Assembly: GCA_026991005.1 (NCBI GenBank)
Contig: JALXCH010000556.1
Location: 1 to 7,537, forward strand
Source: Calditrichia bacterium
GTDB lineage: Bacteria > Calditrichota > Calditrichia > RBG-13-44-9
Length of the DNA: 7,537 nucleotides
Direction: 5' to 3'
Under the pieces are notes generated by a model that searched no databases, was not told the origin of the DNA, and saw only the letters and a program-made list of their open reading frames with translations. Made by a program: the position numbers and the translations under genes. Numbering within the stretch: position 1 is the first letter of the stretch; every line of letters begins with the position of its first letter. This document shows positions 792 through 7,537 of the stretch, piece by piece.

Positions 792-1604
792 TTAGCGCGG
801 TACGCCAGCCGGGATATTCTGTAACAGCGTCTGCAATGTTTTCCGGCTTTCCAGGGGATGTAGTTTGTCCTCGTATTCCAGAACAATCCCTTCTACCGGA
901 ATGCGATTTTTCTCCATGAACCGGAAAATATCCGGATAGGGAACGATACCTTCCCCGATGGAACAAAATGAGCTGCGTAACTGATTCTCATCCCTTACAT
1001 CAATCAAATGAAGTAAAAGGGGCAGGTGGCGGTTGCCGAAATAATTCAGAATTTGAAAGCACCATTCCAGTGCCTCCCGGGGAGAAAACTTCAGGCGCTG
1101 GTGAAAGCATCGGGGGATGTCCAGCACCGGACGCAGAGTGAGTTCACCGGCGTTTGCCAGGGTAAACAAAGCCAGGTATTTCTTCAGATTTTTTCGGGCG
1201 TTTTCATTTCCTTCCAGTTGAAAGTAATTTTCCAGATACACAGTTACCGGTAGTTGCGCCAATTTTCGAATCCCGGCAAGCATTTCCTCCAGATCGGCCG
1301 TTTCATCAAAATGCAAAAGTACGGGTACATCCGGGCAACGATCGAGACATCTCTGGAACAGCCTCCAGAACTCTTGCCGGAAAAATTGAGCATTCAGTTG
1401 ACCGGGTAAATGGAAATAAAAGCGCAGTGTTCCCTCTGCTATCACTTTTTGCATCCACCCCATCTCTTCAGATTTCAATAAAGATTCGGTGAGGTACACC
1501 TGAAGTAGATCGAACCCCTCCTGCACCGCGTAGCGGTAGGCATCTTGCGGATCGAAACTAAAATTAGCCGAAACAGAATTTGCCACACCAATGGGAATCT
1601 TCAT
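792..1604 (-). CDS. Xylose-isomerase-like TIM-barrel protein (sugar phosphate isomerase/epimerase superfamily), substrate unknown
   Basis: A 270-residue soluble protein, the normal size for single-domain members of the AP-endonuclease-2/xylose-isomerase-like barrel. Strand-end motifs appear in the right order for this fold: FHLP at 64-67, LHFDE at 97-101, LENYF at 124-128 (E125 as likely metal ligand), LDIPRCFH at 161-168 (the D..H pair), LHLIDVRD at 198-205, [12 protein letters not shown] at 216-227 (the family's IGEG turn), and IVLEYED at 240-246 (E243 as final acidic ligand). The full set of candidate metal ligands (Glu, Asp, His, Glu) is therefore retained, which argues for an active enzyme, but the reaction (isomerase, epimerase or endonuclease) cannot be told. 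Start at 1604: AGAGGA lies about nine bases upstream, and the next sequence upstream is a G-free spacer. It is upstream of thiI on the same strand, so a two-gene unit is possible. An inactive or non-sugar role is an alternative. Confidence 0.7.
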
Positions 1605-3625: not shown

Positions 3626-3919
3626 TTATCCCAACAAACGTTTCAACATCTCATCGGTTTCCGAGTCCAGATCGACTTCAATTTCGTCCCGGGTACCATC
3701 GGTGAAGAACACTTCGATTAAACGTTGTTCTGGTCGCCAGGCCTCCTCTGGCCCCATATCTTCATACTCCTCAAACATCATGTAATCCACATCCTCAAAA
3801 TCCTCAATCACCAGGTATTCCACTGTTTCCGGATCCAGTTCCAGTAACTCGCAAATCTCCTCGAACATGGGTTCATCGCGACCAACCACTCGGGATTCCA
3901 TGCGATCTCCTATTTCCAT
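3626..3919 (-). CDS. Small highly acidic protein of unknown function
   Basis: A 97-residue soluble protein that I do not recognise. Composition is striking: 34 Asp/Glu against 8 Lys/Arg, concentrated in LVIEDFEDVDYMMFEEYEDM (36-55), then a more typical beta-like stretch RLIEVFFTDGTRDEIEVDLD (66-85), and a short basic end KRLLG. A single Cys lies at 23. There is no signal peptide or membrane segment. Two stacked starts are possible: Met1 at 3919 with GGAGGG seven to twelve bases upstream, and Met7 at 3901 with AGGAG closely upstream of it. I keep the longer form. The real ribosome sites, the 46-bp-distant terminator and its isolated position argue for a genuine monocistronic gene. A role binding a basic partner or nucleic-acid mimicry is conceivable from charge alone but unsupported. 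Confidence 0.75.
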   Translation of the reverse strand: MEIGDRMESRVVGRDEPMFEEICELLELDPETVEYLVIEDFEDVDYMMFEEYEDMGPEEAWRPEQRLIEVFFTDGTRDEIEVDLDSETDEMLKRLLG

Positions 3920-4835: not shown

Positions 4836-4940
4836 ATAAAACAAATTCTTTGAATTTTTTTTGCTCGGAAAAGGCCCCATTTTCAAATCTTATTGATTTC
4901 CCGGAAGTTACCTCATTTTGTTTAACGTGAAACTAATTTC

Positions 4941-4964: not shown

Positions 4965-4992
4965 TTGCATTTCTCGTAAAAAGTGCTATACT
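4965..4992 (+). promoter_or_regulatory. Sigma-70-type promoter for the dnaA-like gene
   Basis: TTGCAT (4965-4970) and TATACT (4987-4992) are separated by 16 bp. Each is one or two bases from consensus. Transcription would begin near 4999, leaving a 5' UTR of about 100 nt before the ATG at 5102. No TTATCCACA-type DnaA box was seen in this spacer, so autoregulation of the usual kind is not evident. Confidence 0.72.
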
Positions 4993-5101: not shown

Positions 5102-6547
5102 ATGGGAAATGAATTGGCTCATTCTCCTCAGGAGGTTCCATCGCAACCGGAATCGGTTCAGGGTAAATGGCAACAGTGCCTCACATTGATGCGAGAGAAG
5201 GTAACCCATCAGGCCTATCAGACCTGGTTGCTCCCTATAATTCCGGTAAATTTTGTGGACAACCAGCTCATGCTGCGAGTGCCTTCTCAATTTTTCTACG
5301 AATGGATTGAATCCAATTTTTACGAAATACTCCACTCTGCGGTAAAAAAGGTATTTGGGCTTCACGCTAAGATTGAATATCTCATCGCCTCCCGTCCGGA
5401 ATCTCAACCGGAGGCAATCAACCTGCAATCCGACACCTCGAATGAAAAGGCGACCCCTCCTGAGAATGCCAGCCCGGTACCGGCTTCCCCCGAGCCGGTA
5501 AATCTGGATGCCCGTTATTCGTTTGCCAATTTTTACGTGCACAACGATAACGAACTGGTGCTACGAGCGGCACAGGAAGTTGCCCGGCACCCGGGACACA
5601 CCGATTTTAACCCTCTATTCATTTACGGACGCAGCGGATGTGGTAAAACCCATTTACTCAATGCGGTGGGTAATGCCGTACTGGAACGAAACAAACGCAA
5701 AAAAGTGCGTTACTACAGTAGCGAGGTTTTTGTTAACGAATATATTTACGCTCTTCAAAGCAAAAAAATTGAAAAATTTAATCAACAATTCTTGAAATAT
5801 GAAGTCGTGCTATTCGACGACATCCATTTCCTGACCGGGAAGAATAAATCCCAGGAAGGGTTGTACTTTTTGCTGAGCGAAATGGAACGGCGTCGCAAGC
5901 AAATTGTGATTTCCTCCAGTTTGCCTCCCTCTCAGTTGAAGGGGTTTAAGAAACGGTTGATCTCATTTTTTAAGCGCGGGTTGATTGTGGATCTGGTTCC
6001 ACCCAGTTACGAAACCCGCATTCGCTGGATGGATGAATATTGCCGCAAGAACAATCTCCAACTGCTTCCGGAGGTAAAAGAGCTTCTGGCACGCTCGCTG
6101 GTGGATGGCCTGCATCAGACCCGCGCGGTGATGGTGCGGATTGCCGCCCAGAGTTCGCTGCTGGGGGAACCGGTTTCCCTGGCGACGACTCGCCGCATCC
6201 TGGAACAAATCGATTCCGCCTGGTTGGAAAAAAACGGTCATTTTCCCTTCCAGAAATCCATTAAAATCGAAGATATCATCAAGGCTGTTTCGGAATACCT
6301 GGATGTTCCGGAGGATTTAATCATCGGATTTTCCCGACAACGGGAGGTATCCTACGCACGACAAATTGCCATTTACCTCTGCAAAGAACTTACCCACCTG
6401 CCCTTTCAGTCCATTGGATATTATTTTAAGGACAGACATTACACCGCGATTTTGTACAACTACCGTAAAATCGCCAACCAGATTCATCAGAACCACATGC
6501 TGGCCGGGATGATTGCCGAAATTAAAAGCCGGCTGTATTTCGATTAA
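5102..6547 (+). CDS. Divergent DnaA-family protein with altered arginine finger, sensor II and DNA-recognition residues
   Basis: 481 residues with full DnaA architecture. Domain I (about 20-97) is typical: WQQCL at 23-27, VPSQFFYEW at 60-68. A Pro/Glu/Ser-rich linker (98-133) follows. Domain III (135-370) keeps Walker A GRSGCGKT (176-183), the helix SSEVFVNEYIYAL (206-218) and Walker B LFDDIHFL (237-244). Changes against E. coli DnaA, by eye alignment: sensor I TSDR is SSSL (271-274); RLKSRFGWGL is RLISFFKRGL (285-294), so the arginine finger R285 is Phe289; sensor II R334 is His338 in GLHQTRAVM. Domain IV (385-481) keeps basic-loop arginines (412, 414, 420), but RDHTT is RHYTA (445-449), losing Asp, His and the last Thr that read the DnaA box. 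No dnaN neighbours it. DnaA-ATP normally oligomerises at oriC using the lost residues. I infer a paralogue that may bind ATP and partner through domain I; a deviant sole initiator is the alternative. The ribosome site is weak (AGGG about 12 bases upstream). Confidence 0.9.
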   Translation: MGNELAHSPQEVPSQPESVQGKWQQCLTLMREKVTHQAYQTWLLPIIPVNFVDNQLMLRVPSQFFYEWIESNFYEILHSAVKKVFGLHAKIEYLIASRPESQPEAINLQSDTSNEKATPPENASPVPASPEPVNLDARYSFANFYVHNDNELVLRAAQEVARHPGHTDFNPLFIYGRSGCGKTHLLNAVGNAVLERNKRKKVRYYSSEVFVNEYIYALQSKKIEKFNQQFLKYEVVLFDDIHFLTGKNKSQEGLYFLLSEMERRRKQIVISSSLPPSQLKGFKKRLISFFKRGLIVDLVPPSYETRIRWMDEYCRKNNLQLLPEVKELLARSLVDGLHQTRAVMVRIAAQSSLLGEPVSLATTRRILEQIDSAWLEKNGHFPFQKSIKIEDIIKAVSEYLDVPEDLIIGFSRQREVSYARQIAIYLCKELTHLPFQSIGYYFKDRHYTAILYNYRKIANQIHQNHMLAGMIAEIKSRLYFD

Positions 6548-6841
6548 AATCCCTTTACAACATCGTATTCTAAATGTGTTCTGATAATTTGATGCACAGG
6601 GAGAGACATCCCATTCATTTCCTCTTTTTGTGGGTTACTCGCAGAAGCAATAAAATTATCCTTTTCAATAAAATTATTTCATTGTTCAATAGTCATGTAC
6701 CGTTTTTACGGGGGATGATTTGCATTTTAATAAGATTGTGTAGTTCATTCGGAGTTTTTAATGTAGAGGCAAACCTCATTTCAAGGAGTTGAACATTCCG
6801 AAGTTTTTTGTAACCAAAGCAATTTCTCAATATGATTTCTG
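6548..6841. other. Non-coding spacer downstream of the dnaA-like gene
   Basis: AT-rich sequence with no credible gene. An open frame at 6574-6792 has no ribosome site and a compositionally random product. Visible items: a direct repeat CAATAAAATTAT at 6648-6659 and 6666-6677 (18-bp period), and a small hairpin CCGT-TTTT-ACGG at 6700-6711. No clear terminator follows the dnaA-like stop. Confidence 0.5.
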
Positions 6842-6948
6842 TCGTCCCTACGGGACTTTCAAGAATTAGGTGGGTTTCTCTTTTCCCATGACTGAAGGTC
6901 ATGGGCTAAGCTCTGACGGCCACTCCGTGGCCTCGTACTCTGCCAGAG
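6842..6948. repeat. Composite hairpin cassette, copy 1
   Basis: Three stem-loops in a row. A: GTCCC-TAC-GGGAC (6844-6856). B: arms CCCATGAC (6885-6892) and GTCATGGG (6898-6905) around TGAAG, perfect 8 bp. C: inner arms GGCCAC (6918-6923) and GTGGCC (6927-6932), enclosed by outer arms CTCTG (6911-6915) and CAGAG (6944-6948). The stretch 6880-6946 recurs at 7191-7257 with 65 of 67 bases identical. The layout resembles REP/BIME-type dispersed palindromic elements; no RAYT transposase is present in the window. An AT-rich spacer (6949-7115) separates the two copies. Confidence 0.85.
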
Positions 6949-7115
6949 GAAAGTCTTTTTAATCCAGAGATTCAATTCTGATTACCCGGTTTTTGGTTAA
7001 TAAAAATTCTTTAGATGTATTGACGTAAAACCCAATTTTTCATTTATCATTTTTTCAATGTCCTCTGCGTATTCTGTGGTTACAAAATTCAATTAAAAAT
7101 TCATAATCGGTTCAA

Positions 7116-7257
7116 TCGTCCCTTTTGGACTTTAACGGATTGAGTGGGTTTCCCTTTTCCCATGGCTGAAGGCCATGTGCTAACATCTTTCTTTTCCCAT
7201 GACTGAAGGTCATGGGCTAAGCTCTGGCGGCCACTCCGAGGCCTCGTACTCTGCCAG
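7116..7257. repeat. Composite hairpin cassette, copy 2, with duplicated B hairpin
   Basis: Same order as copy 1 but with two B units. A: GTCC (7118-7121) with GGAC (7127-7130), loop changed to CTTTT. B1: CATGGC (7161-7166) with GCCATG (7172-7177) around TGAAG, where A-T of the other B copies is replaced by G-C, so pairing is kept. B2: CCCATGAC (7196-7203) with GTCATGGG (7209-7216), identical to copy 1. C: GGCC (7229-7232) with GGCC (7240-7243) and outer arms CTGGC (7224-7228) with GCCAG (7253-7257). The inner C stem has lost a pair through T to A at 7239, while the outer stem gained one through A to G at 7227. Confidence 0.85.
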
Positions 7258-7334
7258 CCGATAGCTTTTAAATCCTAAAAGTCTATTCCAACCACATGGA
7301 GTATCCGGTTAAAAAATATCTTTTCTAATTATTG

Positions 7335-7537
7335 AAACAAATTCCAATTAACAAATCCCAAATCACAAACAAAATTCCAAATAACAAATTCCAAATCACA
7401 AACCCCAAATCCCAATTAACAAAAAACAAATTCCAAATAACAAAAATAAATTCCAAATATCAAATCACTAATTCCAAAAAATAAACACCAAAACCCAAAT
7501 CAAAAAATACAAATAACAAATAACAAATAACAAATCC
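7335..7537. repeat. G-free AC-rich near-repeat tract running off the right edge
   Basis: No G occurs on the plus strand from 7335 to the window end (203 bases). It is made of irregular variants of AAATTCCAAAT, AACAAAT, AAATCACAAA and AAATCCCAA, of unequal spacing, and closes with exact 7-bp tandem units CAAATAA at 7510, 7517 and 7524, then CAAATCC. It has no coding potential. I recall similar AC-rich tracts from spacers of other bacteria, so this is probably a slippage-expanded or dispersed satellite rather than a gene-specific element. Confidence 0.85.

Follow-up and report, generated by a model that had tools for sequence, protein, structure and literature searches.

A Single-Copy, Extensively Substituted DnaA in the Calditrichota That Probably Remains the Chromosome Initiator

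Introduction

The closest described systems to the locus studied here are the canonical DnaA proteins, such as those of E. coli, B. subtilis and T. maritima. These carry an arginine finger, a sensor II arginine, an AID-1 arginine, a RELEG motif and a sensor 1 aspartate, and they have D433, H434 and T436 in domain IV. The related protein Hda has no domain IV. In PMC5742627, roles in E. coli DnaA are assigned to R285, R227, R281, K243, R334, D269 and R399, and R334 is described as dispensable for forming functional initiation complexes. Initiation may therefore persist when only sensor II is lost. PMC6727663 reports that the lethality of E. coli DnaA(R285A) is suppressed by oriC-allADP, in which the sites bind ADP-DnaA equally, and this provides a precedent for an origin that tolerates the loss of R285. 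The same paper describes a debate in E. coli on the role of DnaA-ATP: it may be required for opening the origin mechanically, or it may serve chiefly to give access to weak sites and to set timing.

Two further systems are relevant. The DnaA proteins of Synechocystis 6803 and Synechococcus 7002 are dispensable, and PMC7198777 reports that they nonetheless bound the DnaA-box-bearing oriC of S. elongatus; irregular GC skew is reported there to accompany DnaA independence in Synechocystis and Nostoc. The basal unwinding system combines a DnaA box with a DnaA-trio, the commonest trio being TAG (3'-GAT-5') according to PMC8287927.

This study was concerned with a dnaA gene in a window of 7,537 nucleotides, which is the whole stretch of DNA analysed, from a Calditrichia bacterium. 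The encoded protein and its relatives, referred to as variant DnaA, differ from canonical DnaA in lacking the finger, the sensor II and AID-1 arginines and the RELEG motif. The sensor 1 aspartate is mostly lost, D433, H434 and T436 are replaced, and hardly any of the old boxes are left upstream of either dnaA or rpmH within the clade. Unlike Hda, the variant is full-length with domains I and IV, and no canonical DnaA was found beside it. It resembles the cyanobacterial case of PMC7198777 in that DnaA control of replication is possibly loosened. However, in the variants it is the DnaA protein that has been rebuilt, and the skew of the long basal-variant contigs sampled is largely coherent. In a literature search limited to open-access PMC, no account of such a DnaA variant was among the records listed.

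Results

The window DnaA and its substituted residues

The dnaA gene (5102..6547, plus strand) encodes 481 amino acids with domains I, III and IV present. DnaA_N (PF11638), Bac_DnaA (PF00308) and Bac_DnaA_C (PF08299) all scored above cut-off. The protein also exceeded the cut-off of the NCBIfam DnaA equivalog TIGR00362 (375.5 bits vs 343.9); it fell below those of NF001154 (248.9 vs 410) and NF009087 (166.3 vs 657). A predicted model indicates that the fold is intact. The original prediction, made from the sequence alone, had described domain I and Walker A/B as intact, which is borne out by the DnaA_N match and by the Walker A (GRSGCGKTH) and Walker B (DDIHF) motifs, both of which were read in the protein. 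With these motifs kept, the variant probably binds ATP.

Both ATP sites align with B. subtilis DnaA without gaps. The finger stretch SRFEWGL of B. subtilis corresponds to SFFKRGL in the window and the sensor II stretch NIRELEG corresponds to GLHQTRA. The original prediction had placed F289 (5966..5968, plus strand) at the arginine finger, E. coli R285, and H338 (6113..6115, plus strand) at sensor II, E. coli R334. Numbering and alignment agree on both assignments, and the gap-free B. subtilis alignment gives F289 and H338, not arginine, at these two positions. The reading helix is RHYTA in place of the canonical RDHTT, as had also been proposed, and alignment with E. coli DnaA confirmed it, with H446-Y447 (6437..6442, plus strand) at D433-H434 of the DnaA-box reading helix. 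Several further losses had been overlooked: R227 of AID-1, an inter-protomer residue, is L231 (5792..5794, plus strand), D269 of sensor 1 is S273 (5918..5920, plus strand), W288 is R292 (5975..5977, plus strand), E337 is R341 (6122..6124, plus strand) and K397 is F410. In domain IV the substitutions relative to E. coli are therefore K397 to F410, D433 to H446, H434 to Y447 and T436 to A449. Tested at R285 (F289), R334 (H338) and D269 (S273), the window DnaA lacks the residues of the canonical ATP switch.

Copy number and phylogenetic position

Among the best 120 of 7313 matches in a protein search there were 49 relatives at 44-82% identity, and wherever the organism was named these came from Calditrichia, Calditrichae, Calditrichaeota or Caldithrix. 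The same best 120 included two variant DnaAs at 38-39% identity and canonical DnaAs at no more than 36%, among which the variant fragment P0061 was also located. Viral contigs contained no relative, and all 84 plasmid records matched at less than 60% identity. The record CP061233.1 is 1.0 Mb long, labelled as an E. coli plasmid and annotated with a dnaA; it is possibly a mislabelled piece of a chromosome.

Exactly one DnaA match (E<=1e-8) was found in each of the 15 Calditrichota genomes read as variant, and in sister genomes the same search recovered the canonical DnaA with E values of about 1e-120. The sister lineages have one canonical DnaA each. In the variant genomes the better matches to PF01695 were dnaA itself, besides other short weak matches. 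A DnaB_C match at E<1e-90 was present in 13 of the 15 (G427 and G432 had weak matches only), and DciA was found in 10 of 10 variant and four of five canonical genomes examined. In the tree, the variant clade (35 rows, SH-aLRT 100) is sister to canonical Calditrichota DnaA with a support of 90.

The original prediction proposed a paralogue that modulates the true initiator, and a second, canonical dnaA was looked for; none was present in any of the 15 variant relatives. Because of this single match per genome and the orthologue-like position on the tree, the variant DnaA is an orthologue of canonical DnaA and not a paralogue. The window dnaA is presumably single copy as well, judging from these 15 relatives, a set that does not include its own genome. 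In the alignment, changes of the F289, H338 and RHYTA type are shared by the whole clade (35 tree rows), so on this comparison the substitutions are not sequencing errors. Thus, the original prediction was correct on the residues and on the alteration of the ATP-oligomer and box-reading sites, but its Hda-like paralogue did not survive.

Residue conservation across the clade

Residues were tabulated for 52 main-clade, 13 basal, 14 canonical Calditrichota and 61 outgroup rows; the rows include near-duplicates, and the fragments P0050 and P0061 were excluded. The R285 position is F in all 52 main-clade rows and F (10), L (2) or S (1) in the basal rows, and R is kept in 14/14 canonical Calditrichota and 61/61 outgroup rows. 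Such recurrence, 52 of 52 for F at R285, is far above chance. The R334 position is Q (31) or H (21) in the main clade and H in 13/13 basal rows, and the sensor 1 aspartate D269 is retained in only four of the 52 main-clade rows. R227, R285, W288, R334, D433 and the RELEG motif were all lost on one long stem of the tree, and D269 was mostly lost there too.

Other functional residues are conserved. The Walker lysine (K178) and D235 are present in 52/52 main-clade rows and D236 in 47/52, with N in the remaining five. K243, R399, R407, Q408 and R432 are also kept in 52/52 and R281 in 51/52, and V/I211, R/K245, F46 and W50 are kept as well. Domain I and the ssDNA-binding motifs are retained. In addition, the variants have acquired new near-invariant residues: F289, K/R292, R/K341, Y440, H446 and Y447. 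F289, R/K341, H446 and Y447 are each present in all 52 main-clade rows, K/R292 in 51 of them. Canonical Calditrichota have W and E at positions 292 and 341 (14 of 14 rows). Among the five commonest residues listed for the basal rows, position 292 has K7 Q2 R1 T1 S1 and position 341 has H6 K2 N2 Y1 R1. These near-invariant residues would point to rebuilding and not to decay. Values of dN/dS were 0.041 and 0.122 for variant pairs and 0.043 for a canonical pair, two other pairs being saturated, which indicates purifying selection on the variant DnaA.

DNA upstream of dnaA and rpmH

DnaA boxes were counted upstream of dnaA in 15 canonical loci and in 15 variant regions (14 loci and the window). 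When up to one mismatch was allowed, the canonical loci yielded 44 matches, distributed over 15 of 15 loci (shuffles: mean 3.5, maximum 7). Of these, 24 were perfect, in 12 loci, with two regions clipped by contig ends. A frequent canonical layout is a pair of boxes near -250/-240, spaced by 11 bp, with a further box near -50. The 15 variant regions together contained three boxes at the same threshold (shuffles: mean 2.6, maximum 6) and no perfect TTATCCACA. Counts of perfect TTATCCACA per genome, among the matches listed, failed to distinguish variant genomes from canonical ones and were set aside.

A parS-like site, TGTTTAACGTGAAAC (4919..4933, plus strand), lies upstream of the window dnaA and of its probable promoter (TTGCAT - 16 bp - TATACT; 4965..4992, plus strand), which was read by eye and not by a scan. 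The form TGTTT[AT]ACGTGAAAC is found in 13 of the 15 variant upstream regions, and the other two have a form that differs from it by one or two letters. CGTGAAAC is present in all 15, and this half is also found in 10 of 15 canonical loci, which indicates that the half predates the change in DnaA. Eight variant genomes and canonical G403 carry the exact TGTTTAACGTGAAAC, as a single copy per genome adjoining dnaA. Through this site dnaA expression may be linked to ParB or some other factor, although ParB as its binder is a guess. True parS sites were paired in most loci read, and they adjoin mnmG in both loci checked (G303 and G428).

The divergent neighbour of the window dnaA is rpmB, for ribosomal protein L28 (4585..4779, minus strand; profile match). 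rpmB was found within the 1.5-kb dnaA flanks of 12 of 15 variant loci vs none of 15 canonical loci, and dnaA seems to have been relocated in the variant lineage. No second gene of the window adjoined dnaA in the first 88 loci. An acidic protein of 97 amino acids (3626-3919, minus strand) without a Pfam or NCBIfam match is 57-80% identical to proteins beside rpmB-dnaA in four main-clade loci (L091, L092, L093 and L095).

Upstream of rpmH, boxes with at most one mismatch were found, as raw counts, in all six canonical loci in which rpmH was located. They were perfect in G404, G400 and G418, and the G396 and G406 regions were clipped by contig ends. The variants, again as raw counts, had a single one-mismatch box in one of seven loci (G425). 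G421, whose DnaA class was not assigned, had no box upstream of rpmH. Motif enumeration upstream of rpmH did not exceed shuffles in the variants, nor in the canonical control (top 16, shuffles 13 to 17), so it had no power. The skew changes sign at the rpmH box region, at 4-kb resolution, in G400, G404, G418 and G415, and in G396, which was sampled coarsely, this region is near the skew origin so obtained (half-split p 0.0055). On the canonical contig G396:C1, dnaA itself is located at 2.955 Mb, near the skew terminus, with parS and the rpmH-upstream boxes near the skew origin. In the main clade the region before rpmH has shrunk to about one promoter. The rpmH operon of G430 runs against the local skew, so the origin of G430 is probably elsewhere.

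GC skew and a candidate origin in basal variants

The skew was largely coherent on the true long variant contigs sampled, all of which came from the basal variants G425, G428 and G303. For example, all eight samples of G425:C61 had one sign and G428:C64 had one switch in nine usable samples, with 150001-170000 left out as it is all N. Canonical G415:C1 is less regular, and coherent skew in basal variants is therefore weak evidence. On the variant contig G425:C85 no switch was found near parS (best split 50 kb, p 0.07). The skew of G303:C11 is negative on both sides of dnaA and so does not place the origin at dnaA there. Most 20-kb samples of contig G433:C1 (4.06 Mb) contain Ns in multiples of 100, and the contig was therefore taken as a pseudo-molecule with unreliable gene order and skew. 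Its scrambled skew had been considered as a sign of DnaA-independent replication, but this was dropped since the contig is apparently made of joined pieces.

On contig C63 of G428 the skew turns from minus to plus at about 80 kb (p 0.0006) and has its cumulative minimum at 81,311; parS sites are found at 70.8 and 72.7 kb. The intergenic stretch at the switch contains, at 80,855, five AACA at a spacing of exactly 11 bp. This YAACA array was first spotted by eye in one sequence and tested afterwards. No other run of AACA, CACA or ACA of equal length, at periods of 8-14, was found in 2.8 Mb scanned, and the 11-bp run was retained for this reason. Enrichment of k-mers in the G428 candidate origin alone was not significant (P 0.20 to 0.60). 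A phylum-wide search gave 20 array hits in 14 of 40 genomes vs 17 for a backward control whose mismatch levels were not broken down. Taken together, the array hits are thus no more frequent than those of the control, and only the zero-mismatch ones stand out. Perfect four-fold arrays occurred only in G428 and G427, both variant, and G424, also variant, had one with one mismatch. The five main-clade genomes G429-G433 had no hit even with one mismatch. These array searches and the rpmH regions gave no origin for the main subclade, including the window.

Counting from the start of the array, a TAATAATAATGA tract begins exactly 102 bp downstream in each of G428, G427 and G424. Since the G427 and G424 loci were retrieved by the array pattern, only the offset of this trio-like tract is independent evidence. 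In the 4.37 Mb examined, at least three YAACA with an 11-bp spacing occurred in five distinct places. Only the three in variant genomes combine this with the tract, at +102; the other two (L267 and L066) have no tract within 200 bp. A box abuts the tract in G427 (TTTTCCACA) and in G424 (TTTTCAACA), and in G428 a two-mismatch CTTTCAACA was recognized there by eye. G427 has four further box-like sites 40-82 bp before the array, and dapB-dapD is beside the array and tract in both G424 and G427. Compared with the basal unwinding system of PMC8287927, the box of G427 and G424 is likewise within 16 bp of the TAATAATAATGA tract, and G428 has a weaker box-like site. The variants differ from that system in having boxes of the form TTTTC[CA]ACA, an 11-bp YAACA array and a tract of mostly TAA, not TAG (3'-GAT-5'). 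Overall, the layout in G428, G427 and G424 looks like a DnaA-type origin.

Discussion

The best explanation of these results is that the variant is the sole DnaA of its lineage, an orthologue that is still the chromosome initiator but whose control system has been rebuilt; we give this reading a probability of roughly 0.65. In its favour are the single DnaA match per variant genome, the tree position, the new near-invariant residues, the low dN/dS, the intact fold, the scarcity of old boxes, the array with its tract at +102, the G428 skew switch, the DnaB_C and DciA matches and the oriC-allADP precedent. Against it stand the lack of array hits in G429-G433, the orientation of the G430 rpmH operon, the missing switch near parS in G425, and the main-clade rows that keep D269 or have N at D236. 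From sequence comparison we infer that the variant has initiator activity and a new box code, that the layout above acts as an origin, and that the window's subclade behaves alike. With the finger, sensor II and AID-1 arginines lost, and the sensor 1 aspartate mostly so, the ATP-on/ADP-off oligomer switch would be either dismantled or carried by other residues. Candidate replacements are the basic K/R292 and R/K341, three positions past the lost arginines. In place of TTATCCACA, domain IV would read a shifted box, TTTTC[CA]ACA, and short YAACA repeats. A box-to-trio route to melting would still operate, given that the ssDNA motifs of domain III are kept and that in three basal variants a trio-like tract directly adjoins the final box or box-like site. 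Within this explanation, it is a tentative suggestion that the branch initiates without any arginine-finger or ATP switch, that its timing is not set by an ATP-DnaA/ADP-DnaA cycle, and that protein and box code underwent co-evolution in one episode. As a special case, compatible with this explanation, an ordinary switch would have moved, with K/R292 as finger and R/K341 as sensor II, so that ATP control would be conserved. The near-invariance of both in the main clade, against W and E in all canonical Calditrichota rows, favours such a shift, but the basal rows vary at both positions, and we consider it rather unlikely.

The chief rival is DnaA-independent replication of the main subclade, in which DnaA would have been retired from initiation in favour of another start route and would serve as a transcription factor or other regulator. 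The losses of the ATP-switch residues, the dnaA promoter boxes and the rpmH-upstream box region are all compatible with retirement, as is the absence of a YAACA array from five main-clade genomes, and the cyanobacteria of PMC7198777 are a precedent for keeping a dnaA that is not needed. However, those dispensable proteins still bound a box-bearing oriC and so were not rebuilt in the same way. The new near-invariant residues and low dN/dS also argue against retirement, as do the coherent skew of long basal-variant contigs (weakly, given the less regular canonical G415:C1) and the tracing of the irregular G433 skew to N-joined contigs. Since three basal variants hold a box-plus-trio-like origin, a role solely as a transcription factor is less likely for the window's subclade, and retirement as a whole is judged improbable. 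Regulation of a separate canonical DnaA by an Hda-like paralogue would account for the loss of exactly the ATP-oligomer residues beside an intact domain I. It is very hard to reconcile with the absence of a second DnaA from all 15 variant genomes, the orthologous tree position and the presence of domain IV, which Hda does not have, and we give it almost no weight. If the preferred reading of a rebuilt initiator is true, the lineage is a case of an essential initiator co-evolving with its binding sites. A sole DnaA lacking the finger, sensor II and AID-1 arginines, with changed boxes, would be a natural experiment on the DnaA-ATP debate.

Other features of the window

Several other features were observed in the window. 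A protein of 270 amino acids (792-1604, minus strand) has no Pfam or NCBIfam match. A 9-bp unit, CCCTATTTA, is repeated in tandem at 1686-1791 (11.8 copies) before a yifB-like gene. The long non-coding stretch 3' of dnaA contains direct repeats of about 80 bp (6837-7269; 91% and 79% identical). Lastly, the end of the window (7336-7536) is an AT-rich, low-complexity repeat of period 14, similar to AACAAATCACAAAT, with TAACA words.
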